NCBI GenBank assembly: GCA_019055375.1
Contig: JAHQIW010006425.1
Span: 1 to 64,000 of the forward strand
Length of the DNA: 64,000 bases
From: Parelaphostrongylus tenuis
Lineage: Eukaryota; Nematoda; Chromadorea; Rhabditida; Metastrongylidae
Direction of reading: 5' to 3'
The first letter of the stretch is position 1, and each line of letters starts with the position of its first letter. A program made the translations under genes and the position numbers. Positions 8,831 to 55,618 of this stretch are shown here, piece after piece. Under the pieces are notes generated by a model, which saw nothing but the letters and a program-made list of their open reading frames with translations, was not told the origin of the DNA and did no database searches.

Positions 8831-9537
8831 CAGTGGAGTCGAATACATTCGAGGCACATTCTACAGGAACTGATCCACACCGAGAGTTTTTCTTTGCTCC
8901 TTTTGCTGACTTCAAAGTTCCCAGATTTTAAAAAGAAGTTCAAGTTTCTGTTTGATTTCTGGAATATTCCAACAAGTCATAGGGATGCTAGTAGAGTTTG
9001 TCAGTAAGCCAGATGTCCACCAAACATGATAAATGGGGAAGAGCTCCTAGTTCATATAGTTTAGTTTCTACAGCGTCGATAGTGAGATATAAGGCCGCAC
9101 GTTTTCCTAAAAGAGGACCACTGCCACAGGAGGACCCACAGTTCGTCGAGCTTTTGATGAAGCTTCTCAATTTGCTCAAATCATAATTCTTTCTAATGAT
9201 TTAATGCAGATTCAGGAAACTGCGATGGACCAATCTTGCATTACAGCCTTTAACATGACATGCGGACAACCGTTGAAAGTGCTTTAAGGCTTCATTGCGT
9301 AAAACCACCATTTTGTCAATATCATCACTGGGGAGTTCTTTCAGAGTGACTGTTTATCGGTTTTATAGCTCACGGCTGTCATAAAGCTTATTCAACAGTC
9401 TCTTTCAATTGATTATTTCAAGCCCTCACTTAAAAGCAAAATATTCTGATAAGATACTATGTTGGAACGGAGTCTCCATCGTTTGATAGAACATTCAAAA
9501 TCAATGCATACAATCAGACAACAAACAATAGCAACAA

Positions 9538-9970
9538 CTATTCTTCAAAATACAGGCTCTCATTATCCACCATCTTTTGCCATCGGTCCGCCAGGTTTCG
9601 GATCTGATCGAAGTAGCACTCCTTCGATTTTGATTAAAAGAACTCTTCACATGCCTCTTTAACTTCACCGAAAGATTCGATTTGGCGACCTTCCAAAAAG
9701 TGTTGCATTGATCGGAAAAAGCCGTAATCAGATGGAGCAACGTACGGACTATAAAGCGGATGCGGTAGAATCTCAACTCCGTCGAATTCTTCAAATTTTG
9801 CCTTGGTCTTTTGGCTGTGTGTGGTTTTGCATTGTCTTGCTGAAACAAAGTGCGCTTTTGGCAAACAAGTTCTGGGTACTTTTCGACCAACAACAAACGT
9901 TTCTGTTTCCTGGACAATTCCATTTTGCAGCAGATGAAGACAAATTATATATCAACAGATGCGCAGAACT
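9538..9970 (-). pseudogene. mariner-type transposase, C-terminal fragment with frameshifts
   Basis: Three frames of the minus strand together give the catalytic C-terminal half of a mariner transposase: LFQQDNAKPHTAK around the second catalytic Asp, then VEILPHPLYSPYVAPSDYGF with the third Asp, then MQHFLEGRQIESFGEVKEAC, and finally DRWQKMVDNESLYFEE before a TAG (9538-9540). In this family the protein is a DD34D cut-and-paste transposase of about 340 residues. Here the N-terminal DNA-binding half is missing or unrecognisable, and at least two frameshifts separate the motifs, so this is a dead copy. YSPY replaces the usual YSPD. No terminal inverted repeats were identified with confidence. Confidence 0.85.
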
Positions 9971-10899: not shown

Positions 10900-12970
10900 T
10901 TTATGTGTTTCAAGACACTTAATTCGCAGAGAACGAGGCTTTTTGCAGTTCTAGGTCAGCTGTGCACCCATTCGCATCCACTAAGGGTTCAGTTACATTA
11001 ATCTCATCAACAAAAGAATGTTTGCGATCTCCTCTATCTTCAACATCTCCTTCATTACGTGAAAATTTTCCAGACCAGTGTTGGCCTGTGCGTTTTATTT
11101 ATACCTCTTTGGCCTCATATCTCATTTAAGGTCTCAAGCTGCGTGCGCAACATTACGTCTGAGTTCTATTTTGTAGCATCAGATTTGTCGAACTGCTATT
11201 TTTACATCTAGAATTCCTATCTTTATTATCTGCTCTGAATGTAATTCGGATTACATCTTAATTGCAGAGAGTGTTTGTGAATAAAATAAATCTTGTATTA
11301 TTACATGACAGTGCAGTTTAGCTAAAAAGAATTATTGCATCATTTGATTTATTATTATTTTACATGACGTGTCATCACATCTAGTGTGTGGAGTCCAGCA
11401 CTTTCTGCTTTCGATTTATAACCTCGCGTTTATTTTCCACAAAGGTCGTCGGGCACTTTCAATATAATTACCCAAATCTGAGAGAGCAATGCTCGCTTTT
11501 GTTGGCAATGTGGTTCACTCGAGCTGAACGCTCTGAAAATATCTCCTATTGTTTGATGGGGCTTCTCACGTTGTATCAACTGCTACATGAGGAATTTTGC
11601 TCCTTGAATGTTGTGAAGTGCTAGTCATGTTGAAGTTCCTTGCCATATTTAAGAGCAGAGCTAAGGCGTTTTCACGTCAATGCAAGAAATATTGGCAAGG
11701 AAGTCGAATTTGCACCTTGTTTCTAATAGCCTGCATCACTGACCATTCCGCTCCTTATGCGCTAATCTCTACCAGTTTAATATTTTGCAGTGAGATTCAT
11801 CGCCACATTCGTGTGTGCTTCATTTCGCGCCTTATTTCTGTTTAGGAAAGAGCTATCAGATTTGTTACAATGATTTTGGAATGGTATCATCTATAAGCTA
11901 GGCTTCATCCTTTTCATCTCTTTAAATTGAGTCTTCTCGTCCTCCACTTCTGATTAACAATATGGGAACAATTTCTGCGAATCGAAGATGGTGTAGATTT
12001 TAGCCGTTAACCTTTAGTGTCATACTTCCCCTTATCAGTCTAATGTTGACTGGCCTTAAAGTCCACGAAAGACACAGAAGTGTTTCCCCAAGTGATTTCT
12101 TTTGCCTACTTTACCTTTCCCATGTTGCTAATGATTCACGACGGCGAAATTTCGATAGAAAACTAATATTTAACTCATGCAATCTTCAAATCAGCGCTAG
12201 TAGTATCTTGGTCACCTAAAAGCTTTACGGTTTCTATCAATTTAAACAAATTCAACATTAATTTTTTTTATGAACAGTCTCCAAATTATCAATACAAGCC
12301 CTTTTCGCACTAGCTAGCGTCTCAAGGAATTGGTCTTCTTTGAAGCATGGAAATGATCAAATTGATTTACAATCAATTTAGCCAAATATGTTCATAGTTT
12401 CAACAGTTGAACGCGATGTCGAAATTAAGCAGCATAGGAAATGGCATTCCAAAAACCCATCGTCTTTTGCTTGCTATCTACTAAGTGAGGGACATCATAT
12501 GCACAAGGTTACTTGGGTAAAGAATGCTTCCCTTCAACTCAAAAACGAACTTGAGGTATGAGAAGAGATCATGCGTGCTCTGTGCTTATCATCTTACGAT
12601 TTTGGAAATTACACAAGATGACTCGAGAGTTTTACGCATTGATGTTCCGGATTTTTGGGTGAGGATCTGAACTTTGACTGCAAAATGTATTGTTTGCGTC
12701 TTGTCCTTTGTGTGCCTAATAGATTGCCTGCGAGTTCCCACCGACCATTCCTTATAAAGGAACACAATGGTCTACCCATGGTTGCCAGCGTATTCTTCCT
12801 TTCACGATTTACAAAAAATCGTCAAAATCATGCACGAACTTATGCAATCAGCGCCTCTACTGCTGATCAAAAATATGTAGCTTTATGTTGGCAAGTGAAA
12901 AAATTACCTAACGTGGAGTCCTTTCAGTGTGATTGGTTGACGATTGTTGCTTGCCTGGCTCACGGCTTAC
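10900..12970. other. no recognisable gene
   Basis: Scattered open plus frames (11388-11845, 12655-13095) without family similarity or clear splice partners. The last one runs into a TA microsatellite. Confidence 0.35.
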
Positions 12971-17120: not shown

Positions 17121-17126
17121 TGATGT

Positions 17127-17428
17127 GCGCATGTGGCGCAGTAACTAGAGGTGCTCTGCGTCGCAAACAAGGTCGATGGTTCGACCTCGCACTTATGGCT
17201 CACCAGCCATCCATCTCTTCGAGGTTGATATATTGGTACCCAGACTGGTCTCAGACTTGTCTGGGAGGATAAGCAGCACTGACTCGATACAGCGGGATGC
17301 CCCGCGAGCCTTTATGAAGGCCACATTTGCATTCAAATCGCCTTGAATGAAGTTAAAAATTGAAGGAGAATGCATGGCACATCCCTTAGAGGTTGATCAA
17401 GAAAATTTTATCCTTCTTTACTTTTTAT
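17127..17428 (+). repeat. tRNA-derived SINE, family B
   Basis: Starts GCGCATGTGGCGCAGTAAC, with B-box-like GATGGTTCGACCTCGC. It continues through GGTACCCAGACTGGTCTCAG and ends near GGTTGATCAAGAAAATTTTA. Full-length-looking copy. Confidence 0.75.
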
Positions 17429-17429
17429 A

Positions 17430-18890
17430 TAAGTGATGCTGATGCCTGAAATTAGTCTTCTAAGCCGTGAATCACAAACCTTCCTAATTTGGCTGCCCTT
17501 TGATGCTTGGCTCACGGTGCTGCGCAGTATAGTTTCCTCGCACCCTCTCGTACCTAAGTATGGCAATAGTTCAGAAAAAGTCCGCATCAATTATTCACAA
17601 TAACTTTGCCCTGATACTCACTTAGACTGACAAGGAAGCAAGAGGATTTTATGAAAAGCTCGACGGTATTTATGGCTATAAGCAATGTATATAAGTGGAT
17701 TCAGTGAACTGCTAAGCAACGAGAGCCATTGGAAGAATGGCCGAAGTACCTGAAAATGGATTCAAGTAAAGAGATAGGTCTGTATTCTTGGTGAGCTGAC
17801 GCGAGATGGTCGACATAGCACTTATTTCGCAATATCGTATCACCCCGATACATTTCGCCATCACTGAAGGGATAAAATTAACATCAACCTACTCGATTGA
17901 AAAAATTCAATGCTGCAAAAGGAAAAACAGAAACGATTTTCAGCTGAACTTGAGCAGATTTGAAAACAGGGACAGTTCTTTGTCGCTCATTTTCAAGCAG
18001 AGATAGCAGTTAGAGAGAGTTAAATTGGTTTTAGAGGATCAGTTCAAGCAAAATTCAAATTCAGCCCGATACATGGTATACAAAGTTATTTGGCGACAAT
18101 TTTGCATTCAATTTAATCCAGAACACTTCAGAGTAGTTCCAGCCGATATTTTCCGCTTTTACACTAGGAGAAACACTAGAATCTCATAATGTTCACCGAT
18201 GCACTTATGTCTTATATTGTTCCACTGCATTTCGACCACTGCTACCAGTTCATTTCTCCAAAGTCATTTAAAATTGCCCCTTAATTTGGTTCGATGCTTA
18301 GTTCATTGAAAATAAGTAGAAATGAGATAATTGTTTGCTCTTGAATAATCATTTTACTGGATGGTTTTTATTAAGCTATTTATTCATCTCGCACGACTCA
18401 CAATACATTTTTTTCCATATTTGCGGATCCCTCCCATTCATCTTCCACTAAGGTTTTCAAACATTTATTTCGCATGTTGTACTGATTGCCGCTTGAGAAC
18501 TCTGCTTTATTCATGGTGTCATAAAATACAGGTTAAATCAAGACACCGTGTAAACTTGAGGGCAGTCGAGCTTAGGCGTTCCCACGTGGTCGTGGGGAAG
18601 TGATGGGAGAGAGCGATTGAAATAACACTTTCTAGTTGATAGCTTGCACCATTAACCACTTGACCACTTTCATATTCTCAACCGAACTGCCTAATAATTT
18701 GTTGCCGATGAATATAGTTGACAAATTGAAGCGATTCAATCTTCCTCTCAGCACACACCAGAGAAGTCTGGGAACATGTTTTTAAGAAGACCCTTTTCTG
18801 CATCCCAAAAAAATGTATTAGACAGCATGTCCGTGGCTACCATTCTATGGCATAGAGGTTTCTGAGAAGGATTACTTGAAAGATTTGTAA
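17430..18890. other. no recognisable gene
   Basis: No frame here could be assigned. The 5' part of the PLE that follows may begin in the last few hundred bases. Confidence 0.3.
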
Positions 18891-18899
18891 ATTTAGAAT

Positions 18900-20447
18900 T
18901 AGGAGCTAATCGCAAACGTTGCCTGTATGCTCGCGTAAGTTGCACTCACCGGCTCGAAACACTTCCTATCCACCATTACGTCCCGGTTTACACTTACTTA
19001 TCAAGACCAATAAGTTAGCATGCACTGATGTTCTGCCGTCAACTAATCCATCATAATTCAAAGTTAGACCCACCATCAGCTGTGTAAACGAGCCGACGGA
19101 CAGATTCACGTGGTTTATAAACCCACGACTAGTCCAATACTGAAACACATTCCAACTCATCTCACAAATTCCAAATGCCTCTAGACGGTTGACGTAACGC
19201 ATCTCCCAATAACGCGTACGTAATGGAGTCCTTCAACTGACCACACTTTATAGTGTCAAATGAGTGCGCAATGTAAAGTCATCTGCGAGCTCTTGAGGGG
19301 ACACGAAAATCACAAACGTGTATGGCTTCTTCATTCGGCTGTTCATGGCTTTTTTGAAAAAATGCCTAAACTGCTCATTCTTATGGACCGGGAATTATCT
19401 CGCACAAATAAGAGAGCCGGCAATGGGACAAAGACTAGCCTCAACCCTTTTTATAGCTTTTATGTCTAGAATAGAGGCTCCAATAATGGATCTCCGGCTG
19501 TTACTCTACTGTAGGTATATAGATGATTCTGTTGTCGCCTGCTAAACGCAAGAGGAGATGAACAAATGTTTTGAGTTGCTGAATATTCAGGCAGAGTACA
19601 TGGAGTTTACCCGCGCGAAACCGAAAGCAAATTTGCTTCCATTTTTGAACGGTGATCCAAGCAACAAAAACATCTTGGTTAATTACCTGTCTTCTCATCC
19701 ATCACACACAGAACAGGCACTTGTTTAAAACATGCTTCAAACAGCTTTCAGTGTGTGCACAGGAAAAGAACATAAAGTAGAGTCCTCAAGCTTGGAGCGA
19801 ATAAAAGCCATCTCTAAAAGCCACGACATGGTAGAATCTCCTTAGCTTAAATTTAGAGGAAGCTCGACGCCCCTCAGCCTAAAGCTCACAAGAATAATGT
19901 TCCATTCATCCTGCGCTTCATTTCTAACGGAAAAAGTGCAGCTGTTGAAAGCTGCCTAAAAAGAGCAAATTCGAATAACTCGGTAGCAGTAGTTGAGATG
20001 GCACCAAATATACTAAAGCGCCAATTAGTCCGCAACCAACTGTATCACCTCCTCTGCGAAACGAAAGACTGGCAAGTTTGTTCAAATGGTAGAGACGGCG
20101 ACTGCATGATATTTGGTAAAATTTATCTGATCTCTTGCGAGATATGCAGGGATGAGTATATTGGCGAAACGGGTGGACCACTCTGCATCCGCGTAAAAGA
20201 GCACCTAGCTGAGAAATGTAATTTCGACCCAAAACACCCACTAGGCACGCATAAGGGACAAAGCATAAGGGAGCCAGTTTCGAGGTTCAATTCACGGTTT
20301 TTGCACAGGAATCAAGAACATCCGAGCTTAAAACTTTGGAAGCCTCCTAGGCTACATAGGAAAGTCCCAAAAATAAACTGTAAAGAGGAGTGCCTCGTAG
20401 TAACGCGTGACCGCGCACCACACCTAAGGCTATTCTTTCCGGCCTGA
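18900..20447 (+). pseudogene. Penelope-like element reverse transcriptase plus GIY-YIG, decayed
   Basis: A multi-frame relic of a PLE polyprotein. In order: a KVRPTISCVNEPTDRFTWFI segment (about 19055-19115), corresponding to the RPIIS..GGPTDRISWF region of these reverse transcriptases; an AMGQRLAST block with IAFMSRIEAPIMDL and the catalytic YCRYIDD (about 19430-19525); QEEMNKCFELL and FTRAKPKANLLPFLN; ILVNYLSSHPSHT; and a GIY-YIG nuclease frame (19998-20447) with IYLISCEICRDEYIGETG, IRVKEHL and HPLGTHKG. Many stops and frame changes interrupt the RT part. The nuclease frame is still open over about 149 codons and retains YLIS and YIGET. PLEs copy RNA at chromosomal nicks, often at telomeres or dispersed sites. 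No complete terminal repeat is visible next to it. Confidence 0.85.
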
Positions 20448-20794: not shown

Positions 20795-21107
20795 AAATAT
20801 AAAAAGGATAAAGGATAAAGCTCTCGGCGTTGATCAATCCTTTAGGGATGCGCCATGCATTCGACTTCAATTTCTAACTTCGTCTGAGGTGATTGAATGC
20901 ATATCTGGCCTTTACAATGACTCGCGGTGGCCTCCCGCTGAACCGAGTCAGTGCTGCTTATCCTCCCAGACAAGTCTGAGACCTGCCTGGTACCAATTTA
21001 CCGACCCCGGAGGGATGGATGGCTTGGTGGTCCATGAGCGCGAGATCGAACCATTGACCTCGTGTGCGACGCAGGGCACCTCTAACCACTGCGCCACATG
21101 CGCTCAT
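20795..21107 (-). repeat. tRNA-derived SINE, family B
   Basis: Near full-length minus-strand copy ending GCGCCACATGCGC (plus strand). It starts in AAAAAGGATAAAGGATAAAG, which on the minus strand forms the tail. The 78-codon frame inside is a repeat by-product. Confidence 0.8.
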
Positions 21108-26482: not shown

Positions 26483-29400
26483 CATATAATGGTAGCCAAC
26501 ATAGGGCAAACACTACAATCACCGTTAACATCATTGTCGCTACACGAAGTTTTGTTCGCTCGTCGCGAATCTGAACACATTGCTTCATTCGTTAACTCAA
26601 AGTGTGAAAATCAAATTGAATGAGTAAGGTATGCTGGGAAATATAGTTGACTTTACGCGTTCGAAGCTCGATGACCAAAATCAAAATCGATAGATGTCAT
26701 CCAGTGTTCCAGATCTACGAGCTTTCTTTTTCGGAAGAAAATATTAGTGAAATCTACGGAAATTGAATTATTTTTGTTGTTGCCAGTCATTCTTGCTTTA
26801 CTATAATAGAAAGCCGAATGTAGTACGAACACTTGAATAATAGGCGACATTTCTCCTTTACACATTATGAGACGTTCTCCTTTAGACATTATTAGCTGAG
26901 CTACACCTATCCTCCGTTTTGTAATCAGATCTTCAGAAAAAAAATTAGACCTGTTTAGCTTGTGGCAATTCTACTATAACTAAATAAGCAATGATAGTAT
27001 AATTAAGGCAGGTGTATCGTGAAGATCACTTGAGTTCTATTCCTATCGTGTCTTCAAATTCTATTGTTGCTAAAGATCAAGCAGTCGTTAAAAGTACAAC
27101 TCGAGAACGATTACTATACTGGCTCATAGTACTTGAGAAGCATAGGATCGACGAATTTAGTTCACATTTCTAAATAGCTTAGAACATTATTTTCCTTCAT
27201 TAGTTGGCGTTATTTCGGCAATTTATTACAAAATAAGCTCCTCGAACGCGATCAGGCCACCTCATCGCCGTTATTCCCAGCTCAGAAATAATTTTCACGA
27301 CAAAAGAATTATTGAGCATAGCATTCATCAAATGTATGTCTGTATATAATAGAAACCCTGAATAGTCAACTTAGTCGACTTCCATTTTCCTCACCAGTTT
27401 GAGAATTTTGTAATGATGGAAAAATGAGCTCATTACTAAAGATTGGTTGAAAGTAGTTACAATGTTATCAAACAGTTACAACCTGGTTTGAGACTAGTTT
27501 CGAATACTCTTCTGTAAAACTTTCAATTTTGATATGCTGACTATACTTCAATTAGACGTCGATTATTAAACGTTATGGAAGTGAAATGCTAGAAAATCTA
27601 AATTTGTTCAAGCTTTAAATTCCTAAACTAACATGTGCATCAACAGCGAGGCTTCGATGGTTCGATACGGTGTAGAAGATTTTTGTATAGGAGACGGAGA
27701 TGAGCATAAACGGGACAATAAATGCGAGAATCAGGTTTACCACCACGAACTGCAGTTTCTCATTCGTTCTGGACGCACAGACACAGAGCGTATGATTACC
27801 GTACTCGAAGTATATCTGTAAGTTCAATGATGTTTGAAATAAATTCTATAAAAACTCTCTAATTCTGACTAATTACTGATATTAACTGTATTACTTTTTT
27901 CTTAATTTTTACTTGCTTTTTTACTTTCCTAACTGATACTAAATCCTTAACTCCTTAATTCTCCTCGGAAACTCTATAGAACTCTTCAAACTCTCTTCGA
28001 GTTTTTAGATTACTGCTGCTATTAAGGGTGAAAGCAAAACTGAAAATTATGAAGATTCGAACAATAAGTTTGTCCAAGTAACGTGCACTTTAATCTAGGC
28101 ATAGGCTGATTGAATTTTTCGACTGTAGCATTATTTTTAAATATGTCAGCGCCATGTTTATCATCATCCCTTTATTACGCTTAAAATCATTGGCAGCAAC
28201 TAAAATTGTTACTTGATTAGGCAAATTTTCATGCTAGTTTTTCTTCAAGAAGCCAAGCGAATTTCTACTGACAATTATGTGGAACATTCTAAGAAGTCGT
28301 CATATCAAATTACACTCTAATGACTTCAAATTAGCTCAAAAAGAAACGAATTTAGACTAGAAGGATCTGCATCTTGTTGTCACAGAGTGCTCGACTGAAC
28401 AAGATTGCCAACATTCTTTAGAAGGGTATGATTGAAAAGATTGCAACTCTTTAGTAAAGGGATTTATCCTAAGATAAGCAAGTAAATCTTCTAAGCATTT
28501 TGACACATACTATGAGCTGTTGTAATATTGAGAAGTAGAAGAAATGGAGCAGAATGATAAAAAAAAAGCTGTCAGTTTCACTGCGTTTAATTATGATGTG
28601 TGCTTACTAGACGAAATCCGTTATAGTTTGCTTGCCTACAGCCTTGAAAGTTTACATCGAAGAAGGAATGATAGCAAAGCGGTGGTCTTGGTGGCGTATT
28701 GGTAGCTGGCGTTCTCCGGTATGGGTGAGATAAGCGTTAGAATCCCTCTTGGGGTCAATCACTTTGCATAAAAGGATAGAGAATAAAGCTCTCAGCGTTG
28801 ATCAATCCCCGAGGAATGAGCCATGCACTCGTCTTCAATTTTTAACTTCGTTTGAGATAATTGGATGCATATCTGGTCCTTATAATGGCTCGCGGTGGCC
28901 TACCGCTGTATCGAGTCAATGTCGCTTATCCTCCGAGACAAGTGTGGTACCAATTAATCGACCCTGAAGGGATGGATGAATTGGTGAGCCGTGAGCGCAA
29001 GATCGAACCGTCGACCTTGTGTGCGACACAGAGCACCTCTAATCACAGCGCATGAGCTCCGGCCCTTTGCAAACCACTCAAAATTCTTGGACCAATCATC
29101 ATCAGTTTTCTTTCTAAATTTACCCAGCACTTATTCGGTATTATCAGTTGATCTTTGAACAAAAGCTGACCTCGTCATATCCGTAGAGATTCGGTGTCGC
29201 TAGTGATCCGCTAACGATCCATATTCCAGCGATGACGTACAAAGTGTAGCCGACTTCCCATAACGTGTATCTAAGAGGATTTACGCATCATCACAGCATC
29301 GAATGATTTTAAACGTCCGCTTCTGCTTGTCAATGCTACATTGGACTCACTTTAAGGTATGGCATATTGCTAAATAGCGATCAGCTGTTACTGCCACCAA

Positions 29401-39046: not shown

Positions 39047-39362
39047 TAAAGAGTAAAGGATGAAGCTGTGAGCGTTGGTCAATCCCTGGGGAATGCACCA
39101 TGCATTCATCTTCAATCTTCAACTTCGTTTGAGGTGACTGAATGCGTATCTGGTCCTTACAATGATTTGCGGTGGTCTACCGAAGCACCAAATCAGTGCT
39201 GCTTATCCTCTCAGACAAGTCTGAAACCGTCGAGTGTCAATTTATCGACCCCGGAGGTATGGATGGCTTGAAGAGCCATGAGCGCGAGGTCGGCTCACTG
39301 ACTTTGTGTACGAAGCAGAGCACCCCTAATGACTACACGTACCCTTGCGCCACGTGCTCTCC
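39047..39362 (-). repeat. tRNA-derived SINE, family B
   Basis: Near full-length minus-strand copy, from AAAGAGTAAAGGATGAAGC to CCTTGCGCCACGTGC, with all internal family B blocks. Confidence 0.8.
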
Positions 39363-43559: not shown

Positions 43560-44980
43560 CCTGGGCCGTTCACACTTGATTGTCGTCATCATTGGCTAAA
43601 ACCTCACTTTCAAGCTTTCTCTTTCAACAGAAAAACCATTCGAAGGCTAAAAATCTAACATTTTCCAAATGCGCGAATGAGTAAAATCCACCAGTAATTT
43701 AATTGTCGTTAAATTCACAATGAAATCTTCAATCTTTTTCCTGATCAAGGCGCTCATCTCTGTTACAAAGTTTTTTTTCGAACAATGGGACTGAATCACA
43801 GTAATTGATGTCAATAAAACGTTGAGAACTATGTCACATGAAGACATGATCTTCATAGAATGTCACTGACGCTTACTTTAGCATACGTCTTTTCGTTGTT
43901 CATCTTGTGGACTCGTATTATTTTAACCGATTGCCTTAGGACAACTCCTTCTTCAAATTTCGGAAATAACGATGCCTTCAGTTGTTTCTAGTTCAGTAAA
44001 GTGATCAACATTAGTCAATATGTAACAGATGTAAATAATTGTGCTTAATTTCTAATTCAAAATTTGAGCTTGTAATTATTAAGTGGTACAGCAAAGTAAA
44101 GAACCGGTTTGCAAAACTCCGTAGAAATTTCAGTTTAAAAAGCTTGCTAAAATAAGAGTGGCGCGTTGAAATCAATATGATTTACTAGTCAGTAATCAAC
44201 TTTGACTCAGCGATATGACTTATTAAGATCACCGCTCTAATGCTTGGCGTACAATGACACTGTGTCATCACCATTTCTCAGTCAATGGATTTTGGCTGGA
44301 AGAACAAAACTGATCCATCGCATTGACTATTTCAAAACCTCACAATAAGCATTCAAAATAATTTCAAAAAGAAAGAGTGTTCAAAGTTTAAGCAAAACAC
44401 GTGTGTATGCCCTCTTTTTTATTAATGGTTTTCTTGCCATCTTCTATTGCTCTGCAAAGAAACTTTATAGAAAATAGCCTACCCATCTATTTGATTTCGA
44501 GGCTTCTATTTGAGACCTTCAGATATCTATCAGAGAAAAAACTACTTCGTTATTTTCATTTTTGTGCACAGTCTACGACCAAAATTACGAAGAACAATGT
44601 TTCTGAATGCTTTGAAAAATAATGGCATATTTGCATCAAAATGAAAACTATCATAATTGAATGCTACATGAGAATAAATCGCCAAGGTGAAAAGATGCCC
44701 TGACCATCGGATGAGTGAGCGGTGAGATGATGAGCGATTATCGTGCGCTAGAAAGAGTATATGGAGAAATCCTAGACAGCATAGTTTGATTTCCTTCTAT
44801 TCACCTTTAATAAACCCTCGCAAGGATTCCTCTTCCTACGTCAAGATATTGAGTCGGAGCTTATCAGCTCCTTCAGGAGTGCTGCTAAAGAGGCTGATGG
44901 TAATCGATTCAGTAAACACTTGTTTAAAAAATGCTGCTAAAATCACATACCGCAAGGCTGTTAACGTTTTGACGTTTTCG
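43560..44980. other. no recognisable gene
   Basis: No supported coding. At 44950-45000 the reversed CTGAAGAAG...CGAAAACGTC block of PLE ends appears (GACGTTTTCGTCTTCTTCAG on plus). Confidence 0.35.
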
Positions 44981-45160
44981 TCTTCTTCAGGCCGGCGATT
45001 CAAGTCGATTGCCTACAGTCGTTCGACGTCGAAGCCTTCGCCTTCGCTATCGTTCGAGTCGAGTCTACGTGCTTAAGTACAAAAGGAGTTATTATTGCTA
45101 TCCTAAAATAAAAGGAGTTATTGAGATCCTTGCTTCAATGCAGGGCTGAATGTGGGGCGG

Positions 45161-45208
45161 GGGTCACTGATGAGGAGGACGAACCTCCGAAACACCGGTG
45201 TATGACCC
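45161..45208 (+). ncRNA. hammerhead ribozyme, complete, copy 1
   Basis: Stem I is GGGTCA (45161-45166) with TGACCC (45203-45208). Core CTGATGA is at 45167-45173. Stem II is GGAGG/CCTCC (45174-45178, 45184-45188) with loop ACGAA. GAAA is at 45189-45192. Stem III is ACA/TGT with loop CCGG. The GUA triplet is at 45200-45202, with cleavage predicted after 45202. All invariant core positions of the family are present, and the order of strands is type I (open at stem I). Confidence 0.88.
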
Positions 45209-45428
45209 TGGGCGTACCAACCCCTTTTTGAGCTTAAATCATTCTTTTTTGGAATTATATTGAATGTTTTTTGGGGGTTTCAAAAACAGTTGATCTTTTG
45301 AATTAGTTTTGAACTAACAGCAAAAATCTATCGACTGAGAGGTGGTTATGGTACAGTGTCATAGTACACTGTGCCATCACCACATACGCCTCCCTCCTTG
45401 CTTCAATGCAGGGCTGAATGTGGAGCGG

Positions 45429-45476
45429 GGGTCACTGATGAGGAGGACGAACCTCCGAAACACCGGTGTATGACCC
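45429..45476 (+). ncRNA. hammerhead ribozyme, complete, copy 2
   Basis: Identical to copy 1 over all stems and core: GGGTCA (45429-45434), CTGATGA (45435-45441), GGAGG/CCTCC, GAAA (45457-45460), ACA-CCGG-TGT, GUA ending at 45470, TGACCC (45471-45476). The flanking sequence has diverged slightly, while the 48-nt ribozyme has not changed. Confidence 0.88.
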
Positions 45477-45534
45477 TGGGCGTACCAACCCTTTTTGAGC
45501 TTAAATCATTCTTTTTTGGAGTTATTATTGATTA

Positions 45535-46048: not shown

Positions 46049-46197
46049 ACTGGAAGGATATAAGGATAAAGCTTTCAGTGTTGATAAATCCCTGAGGGAT
46101 GAGCTATGCATCCGTCATCAAATTCTAATTATGAGCGCGAGATCGAACTATTGACCCTCTGTGCGACACAGAGCACTCTAACCCTTGTGTCACATGC
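46049..46197 (-). repeat. SINE family B, internally deleted
   Basis: Keeps the tail side (AAGGATAAAGCTTTCAGTG, TGATAAATCCCTGAGGGATG) and the head side (GAGCGCGAGATCGAAC, CTTGTGTCACATGC). It lacks the middle 150 bp. Confidence 0.7.
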
Positions 46198-55283: not shown

Positions 55284-55618
55284 GGTACTCGTTGTTCGGT
55301 ATGTGTTGACTGTGGCATTACTTCTCCTTCAAAATTGACATTCTGAAGTTTATTTGAATCCTTTATCAAAAAACAGGACCTATTAAAATTATATGCTCGA
55401 GTGAATCAAAGATATATTCCCACAACTGCTGTTTTTTTTTCAACTGACAAGGTACTCGTTGGTCGGTATGTGTTGACTGTGGCATTACTTCTCCTTCAAA
55501 ATGACATTCTGAAGGCTTATTCGAATCCCTTATCAAAAAACAGGACCTATTAAAATTATATGCTCGAGTGAGTCAAAGATATATTCCCACAACTGCTGTT
55601 TTTTTTTTCAACTGACAA
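55284..55618. repeat. tandem duplication, two copies of about 167 bp
   Basis: Copy 1 (55284-55450) and copy 2 (55451-55618) both run from GGTACTCGTTG through CTCCTTCAAAA and ATTATATGCTCGAGTGA to a T-run and CAACTGACAA. They differ at only a few bases, so the duplication is recent. Confidence 0.95.

Follow-up and report, generated by a model that had tools for sequence, protein, structure and literature searches.

A probable non-LTR retrozyme family in a strongylid nematode with insertion scars like those of Penelope-like elements

Introduction

Retrozymes are known from animals, and Penelope-like elements (PLEs) have been proposed as their helpers (PMC7229834, PMC7761336; sources named by PMC number are cited here and below from the part of their text available to us). 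The metazoan non-LTR retrozymes (Cervera and de la Pena 2020, PMC7229834) consist of tandem units of a few hundred base pairs, each with a type I hammerhead, a GC content below 50% and no protein, and they are flanked by target duplications of more than 4 bp. The same text reports dimeric cutting in amphibian retrozymes and names PLEs as a strong candidate for the enzyme that spreads these elements, both kinds of element having type I hammerheads and tandem copies and occurring in the genomes studied there. In the LTR retrozymes of plants, two ribozymes flank a non-coding region for which a circle model has been put forward (PMC4918200). Penelope copies of Adineta vaga carry inverted pLTRs arranged head to head between duplications of 8-10 bp, and one inverted pLTR may bear a 31-bp tail (PMC3846280).

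Here we analyse a locus of the nematode Parelaphostrongylus tenuis in a window of 64,000 nucleotides (assembly GCA_019055375.1, contig JAHQIW010006425.1, positions 1 to 64,000), where a preliminary description had read a pair of hammerhead motifs as a retrozyme. The nematode unit resembles the metazoan retrozymes in its tandem arrangement, type I hammerheads, GC content, lack of protein and target duplications, the last being 10-15 bp long. It is set apart by its host, the word 'nematode' being absent from the main text of PMC7229834, and by divergent arms, two preferred 3' ends and an apparently PLE-like 3' region, which were not found in the available text of that paper. With the plant elements it shares two ribozymes around a non-coding region and the circle model; those elements differ in their type III ribozymes, the roughly 700 bp between their cuts, their 4-bp duplications and their PBS and PPT (PMC4918200). 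Head-to-head arms, short duplications and a one-sided tail are common to the nematode element and the A. vaga PLEs (PMC3846280), whereas the retrozyme unit is non-coding and contains hammerheads, none of which was found in the PLE ends examined in this genome. Minimal hammerheads have been described for PLEs and Terminons (PMC7761336). In this genome, GAAACAC..GTGTAT around stem III is common to the retrozyme and to minimal hammerheads of short repeats; the stem III of the latter is ACACGTGT without a loop, in contrast to the CCGG loop of the retrozyme.

No report of a nematode retrozyme was found in the literature searched; an earlier notice is possible, key literature on PLE hammerheads lying outside that search. 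As to the enzyme that spreads animal retrozymes, the insertion anatomy and 3' sequence described here point to PLEs.

Results

Two hammerhead motifs bound a folded non-coding monomer

Two identical 48-nt type I hammerhead motifs, 268 nt apart, lie on the plus strand of the window (Table 1). Both have all core bases (CTGATGA and GAAA, with A as H17), a stem II of GGAGG/CCTCC, a stem III of ACA/TGT with a CCGG loop, and a stem I of six Watson-Crick pairs and a G-T. The preliminary description of two complete hammerheads with every invariant core base and with six, five and three pairs in stems I, II and III is thus borne out, the G-T being an addition. A type I scan with stem conditions returned exactly these two motifs in the window and none in 100 dinucleotide-shuffled windows, and the stretches from core to stem I (45167-45208 and 45435-45476) are identical where 0 such matches are expected by chance. 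It had also been noted that the ribozymes are identical while their flanks differ; the identity holds, but the contrast is weak, the 102 nt around the motifs being 98% identical. The direct repeat exceeds the ribozyme (45127-45263 against 45395-45531, 97.1% identity over 138 columns), and the window copy therefore comprises about 1.5 units.

The predicted fold of the isolated motif stands against the ribozyme reading: the lowest-energy structure of the 50-nt motif has -18.0 kcal/mol compared with -15.6 kcal/mol for the hammerhead, so that another fold is preferred. The covariance-model comparison with the Rfam type I hammerhead, which had been suggested as a check, gave no match to the window motifs. 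No hammerhead reached the gathering score, none was listed up to E = 10 in 901 bases of the locus, and the sole hammerhead match in 121 bases was a mis-paired type III at 14.4 bits against a cut-off of 48.5. When four loci were searched with Hammerhead_1 (RF00163), the matches were to other ribozymes, in L016 (29.5 bits) and L012 (28.5 bits) against a cut-off of 34; copies of the retrozyme's ribozyme in L016, L012, L031 and L043 were unlisted up to E = 1, as were the minimal hammerheads of L031 and L043. Since RF00163 also skips or under-scores other hammerheads of this genome, its miss says little about function. A scan of one viral contig returned no similar hammerheads.

The monomer between the predicted cut sites has the 268 nt given in the preliminary description, a GC content of 44% and, on the circle, a longest ATG frame of 41 aa. 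The unit contains no RT or GIY-YIG frame, which agrees with the earlier statement that it has no protein, and a Pfam search of nine window frames gave nothing above the cut-off. The strong 12-pair hairpin that had been reported is real and continues for five more pairs past a mismatch; in the locus-majority monomer it reaches 18 pairs. Folded as a circle, the monomer has a predicted energy of -84.9 kcal/mol, which none of 200 shuffles reached (-64.3 +/- 4.8 kcal/mol, z ~ -4.3), and the predicted unpaired fraction is 0.50 at site A and 0.60 at site B, two end sites defined below, against an average of 0.38.

Outside the repeat, the window copy has a candidate target-site duplication of 13 bp, within the size class of the 10-15 bp repeats found at all 20 two-armed insertions described below; the automatic repeat finder, which is tied to block ends, gave just 9 bp and 7 bp here. 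The resemblance of target and element at this point leaves the precise 3' end of the copy ambiguous. To judge by its sequence, the 29-nt filler at 45098-45126 is possibly the remnant of a second arm. The copy in L016 has a similar plan: it starts at c194, its filler measures 5 nt, its repeat is 13 bp long and its 3' end is of type B.

Table 1. Features of the retrozyme locus and of the PLE fragment in the window (c, position on the 269-nt locus-majority unit).
Feature	Position	Strand	Remarks
Hammerhead motif 1, type I	45161..45208	+	Motif and stem scan; predicted cut after 45202
Hammerhead motif 2, type I	45429..45476	+	Motif and stem scan; predicted cut after 45470
268-nt monomer between predicted cut sites	45203..45470	+	Predicted circular RNA
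Retrozyme body, one arm, ~1.5 units	45127..45517	+	5' end c195, type A 3' end
Candidate 13-bp target-site duplication, left copy, GGAGTTATTATTG	45085..45097	+	Exact match to right copy
Candidate target-site duplication, right copy, GGAGTTATTATTG	45518..45530	+	Exact match to left copy
29-nt filler between duplication and element	45098..45126	+	Includes second GGAGTTATT
3'-end region	45242..45310	+	Similar to PLE 3' end and tail of the genome (~c42-110)
Site A	45248..45264	+	End of the shorter arm in other copies (c48-64)
Site B	45298..45312	+	End of the longer (tailed) arm in other copies (c98-112)
Long hairpin of monomer	45341..45384	+	
Old relic of the retrozyme family, without ribozyme	44249..44412	-	Monomer positions 8-165, 69.5% identity
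Decayed PLE fragment, RT end and GIY-YIG region	19462..20444	+	Proposed helper class

The unit belongs to a dispersed family of tandem arrays

A 401-base query from the locus, run against the genome (5105 contigs, 481.5 Mb), gave at least 159 matches, 40 of 1018 candidates having been scored; many are spaced about 270 bases apart. The listed matches are 84-100% identical to the query, and many lie in tandem arrays, the longest of about 31 units (L030). The genome search that had been called for thus found tandem copies. The outcome named as speaking against a retrozyme, in which the block belongs to a longer coding repeat or to an unrelated one lacking tandem monomers, did not appear. The number of matches, the arrays and the flanking repeats of target-duplication type described below support that reading.

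Ribozymes were counted in 39 fetched matching stretches together with a 6-kb piece of the window. This set holds 172 ribozyme places with at most 10 substitutions, 149 of them exact (146 and 128 once duplicate loci are removed), and with duplicates likewise removed 101 of the 102 complete units measure 263-272 nt and the remaining one 160 nt. The fetched stretches are the best query matches, a part of the family, and are for that reason skewed to young copies. Relative to the locus-majority unit, the per-base difference is 0.0067 in the ribozyme and 0.0236 in the remainder; a vote by locus (33 loci) gives 0.0052 and 0.0151 per site. Constraint on the ribozyme, at which the preliminary description had hinted, does not follow from these figures, because a 52-position stretch covering the ribozyme ranks only 35th lowest in variation among 269. 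An array copied from one RNA should have units more alike within an arm than elsewhere, and this is what we observe: the mean number of substitutions between units is 1.1 within arms (16 arms) and 4.2 between loci (593 pairs). The family has the type I motif, the dispersed multicopy tandem units within the 150-450 bp range, the stably folded monomer, the GC content of 44% and the absence of coding capacity by which metazoan retrozymes are recognised.

Two-armed insertions are head to head with two preferred 3' ends

The arrays were mapped on the locus-majority unit, and 33 insertions were kept. Duplicates were removed (L017, L019, L018, L027, L038, L039 and L022), as were L030, whose left end is the contig end, and an older piece in L011; L001-L008 were not used, the same or wider places having been fetched again. 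Because L018 and L014 have a common right flank, L018 is left out of these counts; if it is kept instead, there are 34 insertions, 21 of them two-armed, of which 18 have A and B ends, with flanking repeats in 20 of 21 and in 6 of 420 control pairs.

The arrays are not plain tandems. Twenty of the 33 insertions are two-armed, and in every one of these the arms stand head to head, the minus array coming before the plus array and the RNA 3' ends facing outward. Seventeen of the 20 combine an arm that stops at site A (c48-64) with one that stops at site B (c98-112), about 45 nt further; L032, L034 and L044 break this rule. Across all 33 insertions, 49 of 53 3' ends fall within A or B compared with 5 of 53 5' ends, the two intervals having been defined after inspection on the same data that they count. 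No report of these end sites was found in the literature searched by title and start of abstract.

Flanking repeats of 10-15 bp, mostly 12-13 bp, border all 20 two-armed insertions, and repeats of at least 10 bp occur in 6 of 380 mismatched flank pairs used as a control. Of the single-armed insertions, 13 in all, four (L012, L016, L023 and L026) had a repeat of at least 10 bp according to the automatic finder. When the flanks are joined and the repeat is kept once, the resulting empty sites match uninterrupted sequence for L031 (95%), L042 (83-85%) and L012 (81%); for L026 the match is 72% and poor at the junction. Just 2 of the 20 two-armed insertions have arms whose inner ends are at most 12 unit positions apart, which favours two separate cDNAs over a hairpin copy. 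One arm spans about 16.8 units. Neither the head-to-head arms nor the two fixed 3' ends nor the PLE link formed part of the preliminary description.

By eye, the 5' ends of the arms gather near c25-43 and c177-217, which may reflect stops at structure or RNA 5' ends. An impression that arms comprise whole numbers of rounds was abandoned, two preferred 5'-end regions describing the data equally well.

Penelope-like elements of the genome leave similar scars

A PLE protein query against the genome gave 19787 first-look candidates. Among the 150 that were scored, open frames reach 902 aa and a number of matches are minus-then-plus neighbours. When the outer ends of 10 PLE pairs were examined, 7 had a flanking repeat of 12-14 bp, and in these a single arm of the two was extended, by 38-102 nt. 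As for the other pairs, L060 has a one-sided tail and no flanking repeat was found there, a retrozyme adjoins the pair in L062, and the arms of L064 reach the end of the fetched pieces. A PLE in L031 has the same anatomy, with a 13-bp repeat and a 40-nt tail. The insertion scars of the retrozyme thus match those of PLEs, which suggests that the machinery copying such elements is that of the PLE, and the retrozyme has the head-to-head arms, short duplication and one longer end of a non-autonomous PLE derivative.

The likeness extends, with less certainty, to the 3' sequence. We compared the tails of 10 of 22 PLE 3' ends, chosen for a previously noticed tail motif and comprising one arm from 8 of the 10 pairs plus the PLEs of L031 and L016. 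Aligned to the whole unit, the 3' 80-mers of 8 of the 10 fit best with a start at c42-53 and an end at c104-129, and the score of each was reached by 1-4 of 1000 shuffles; these eight represent about three subfamilies, and L063 among them has a retrozyme beside its pair. The tails of L031 and L016 had no similarity to the unit. The shared core is clearest in one PLE subfamily, which has GGTTTCAAGAA-AGTCGGTCTTTCGA where the unit reads GGTTTCAAAAACAGTCGATCTTTTGA. With most of the compared PLE 3' ends aligning best in this region, the unit appears to have a 3' end of PLE type that encloses both end sites.

A hammerhead inside PLE ends, looked for as a link between the two elements, was not found: there was none in 22 PLE 3' ends, apart from the retrozyme copy in L062, and none upstream of long PLE frames in 5 pieces. 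The ribozyme is accordingly not simply inherited from the PLE pieces examined. Within the window, the frame 19857-20444 of the decayed PLE fragment has its best match in P. tenuis (54%) and others in Ancylostoma, Necator and Heligmosomoides, and the PLE piece of L031 is 87% identical over 131 residues to the P. tenuis protein P0001. More decayed GIY-YIG fragments of PLEs were seen at 604-897 and 12541-12864.

Discussion

A proposed cycle of ribozymes, ligase and PLE enzyme

We consider it probable that the element in the window belongs to a family of metazoan non-LTR retrozymes that spreads in this strongylid nematode through the joint action of its ribozymes, a ligase and a PLE enzyme. In such a cycle, transcription of an array would yield a multimeric RNA, which the type I hammerheads would cut into units of 268-270 nt; the palindromic stem III ACACCGGTGT could pair between two motifs and so allow dimeric cutting. 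A host ligase would close the units into circles. The PLE enzyme, with its reverse transcriptase and GIY-YIG endonuclease, would recognise the 3'-end region apparently common to retrozyme and PLEs and make a staggered cut of about 12-13 bp in the target, whose two ends would each prime reverse transcription, at A and at B. The enzyme may traverse many units or only a fraction of one, and joining of the two cDNAs would leave head-to-head arrays between copies of the target duplication. The motifs, copies, arms, preferred 3' ends, flanking repeats and empty sites are seen in the DNA itself, and the steps from transcription to priming are inferred. We lean slightly towards the further view that animal retrozymes of this kind stand to PLEs as SINEs stand to LINEs, carrying the 3' recognition region of PLEs, with the PLE enzyme priming on an RNA circle from both target ends at two fixed sites. 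If so, the genomic arrays were produced by an enzyme that rolled around circular RNA. Because retrozyme and PLE are both present here in many similar copies, this genome provides the RNA and protein parts for testing priming on circular RNA.

As a less likely alternative, the template of this cycle may have been not a circle but a linear multimer that escaped cleavage, the rest of the model being unchanged. Fractional arms and clustered 5' ends could then be RNA ends or stops, and multi-unit arms are also compatible with linear uncut RNA. With 149 of 172 ribozyme copies exact, long uncut RNAs should be rare if the ribozymes work, and one arm reaches about 16.8 units; these points weigh against a linear template and are not decisive. 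How the two arms arise can also be read differently, namely by self-priming on an antisense template in place of priming from both target ends, as has been inferred for Penelope from palindromes at inverted junctions (PMC3846280). We regard this as improbable here, since inner ends are close in only 2 of the 20 two-armed insertions, so that most junctions are not simple palindromes, and it is the outer ends that are fixed and not the inner ones.

A different enzyme would be required if the units were mobilised by LINEs through target-primed reverse transcription and twin priming. LINEs are known for twin priming and for duplications of similar size, and the 15-bp duplications that flank Nematostella repeats have been likened to those of LINEs (PMC4918200). 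Two preferred 3' ends and one longer arm are, however, the anatomy of PLEs, both in A. vaga (PMC3846280) and in this genome, and the 3' ends of the genome's PLEs align to the unit, a comparison that covers PLE ends alone; we thus judge LINE mobilisation quite unlikely. Least probable of all, to the point of being hard to entertain, is plain satellite DNA shaped by unequal exchange and rearrangement with the ribozyme as a passenger. The array of about 31 units in L030 and the homogeneity of the arrays would suit it, but the short arrays are dispersed, and the flanking repeats of 10-15 bp at all 20 two-armed insertions and the preferred 3' ends, along with the empty sites, disfavour it. The retrozyme cycle with a PLE helper remains our preferred reading.

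Other repeats

At L016:2524-2820, and likewise in L022, another hammerhead element some 280 nt long is nested in the first; its type I ribozyme is a different one, which matches Hammerhead_1 at 29.5 bits, below the cut-off. A template switch between two retrozymes was considered for L016 and dropped, the duplicated TTATATTGAA around the second element fitting a nested insertion. Minimal hammerheads with the stem III given in the Introduction occur in short repeats of L012, L022, L031, L035, L038, L039 and L043, and the scan that lists them returned none in 10 shuffled sets; those of L031, of which L038 and L039 are duplicates, sit among inverted repeats.

In the window, remains of what we take, by its motif, to be a mariner-like transposase lie in two frames at 9504-9951 on the minus strand, for which Pfam gave no match. 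A repeat roughly 300 bp long, which may be a SINE, has copies at 20802-21094, 17121-17430, 28770-29051, 39048-39329 and 46054-46197. It also occurs within predicted P. tenuis proteins, and about half of a frame derived from it aligns to two P. tenuis predictions at 80-81% identity. At 55284-55618, a 167-bp unit stands in two tandem copies, with matches of 95%.
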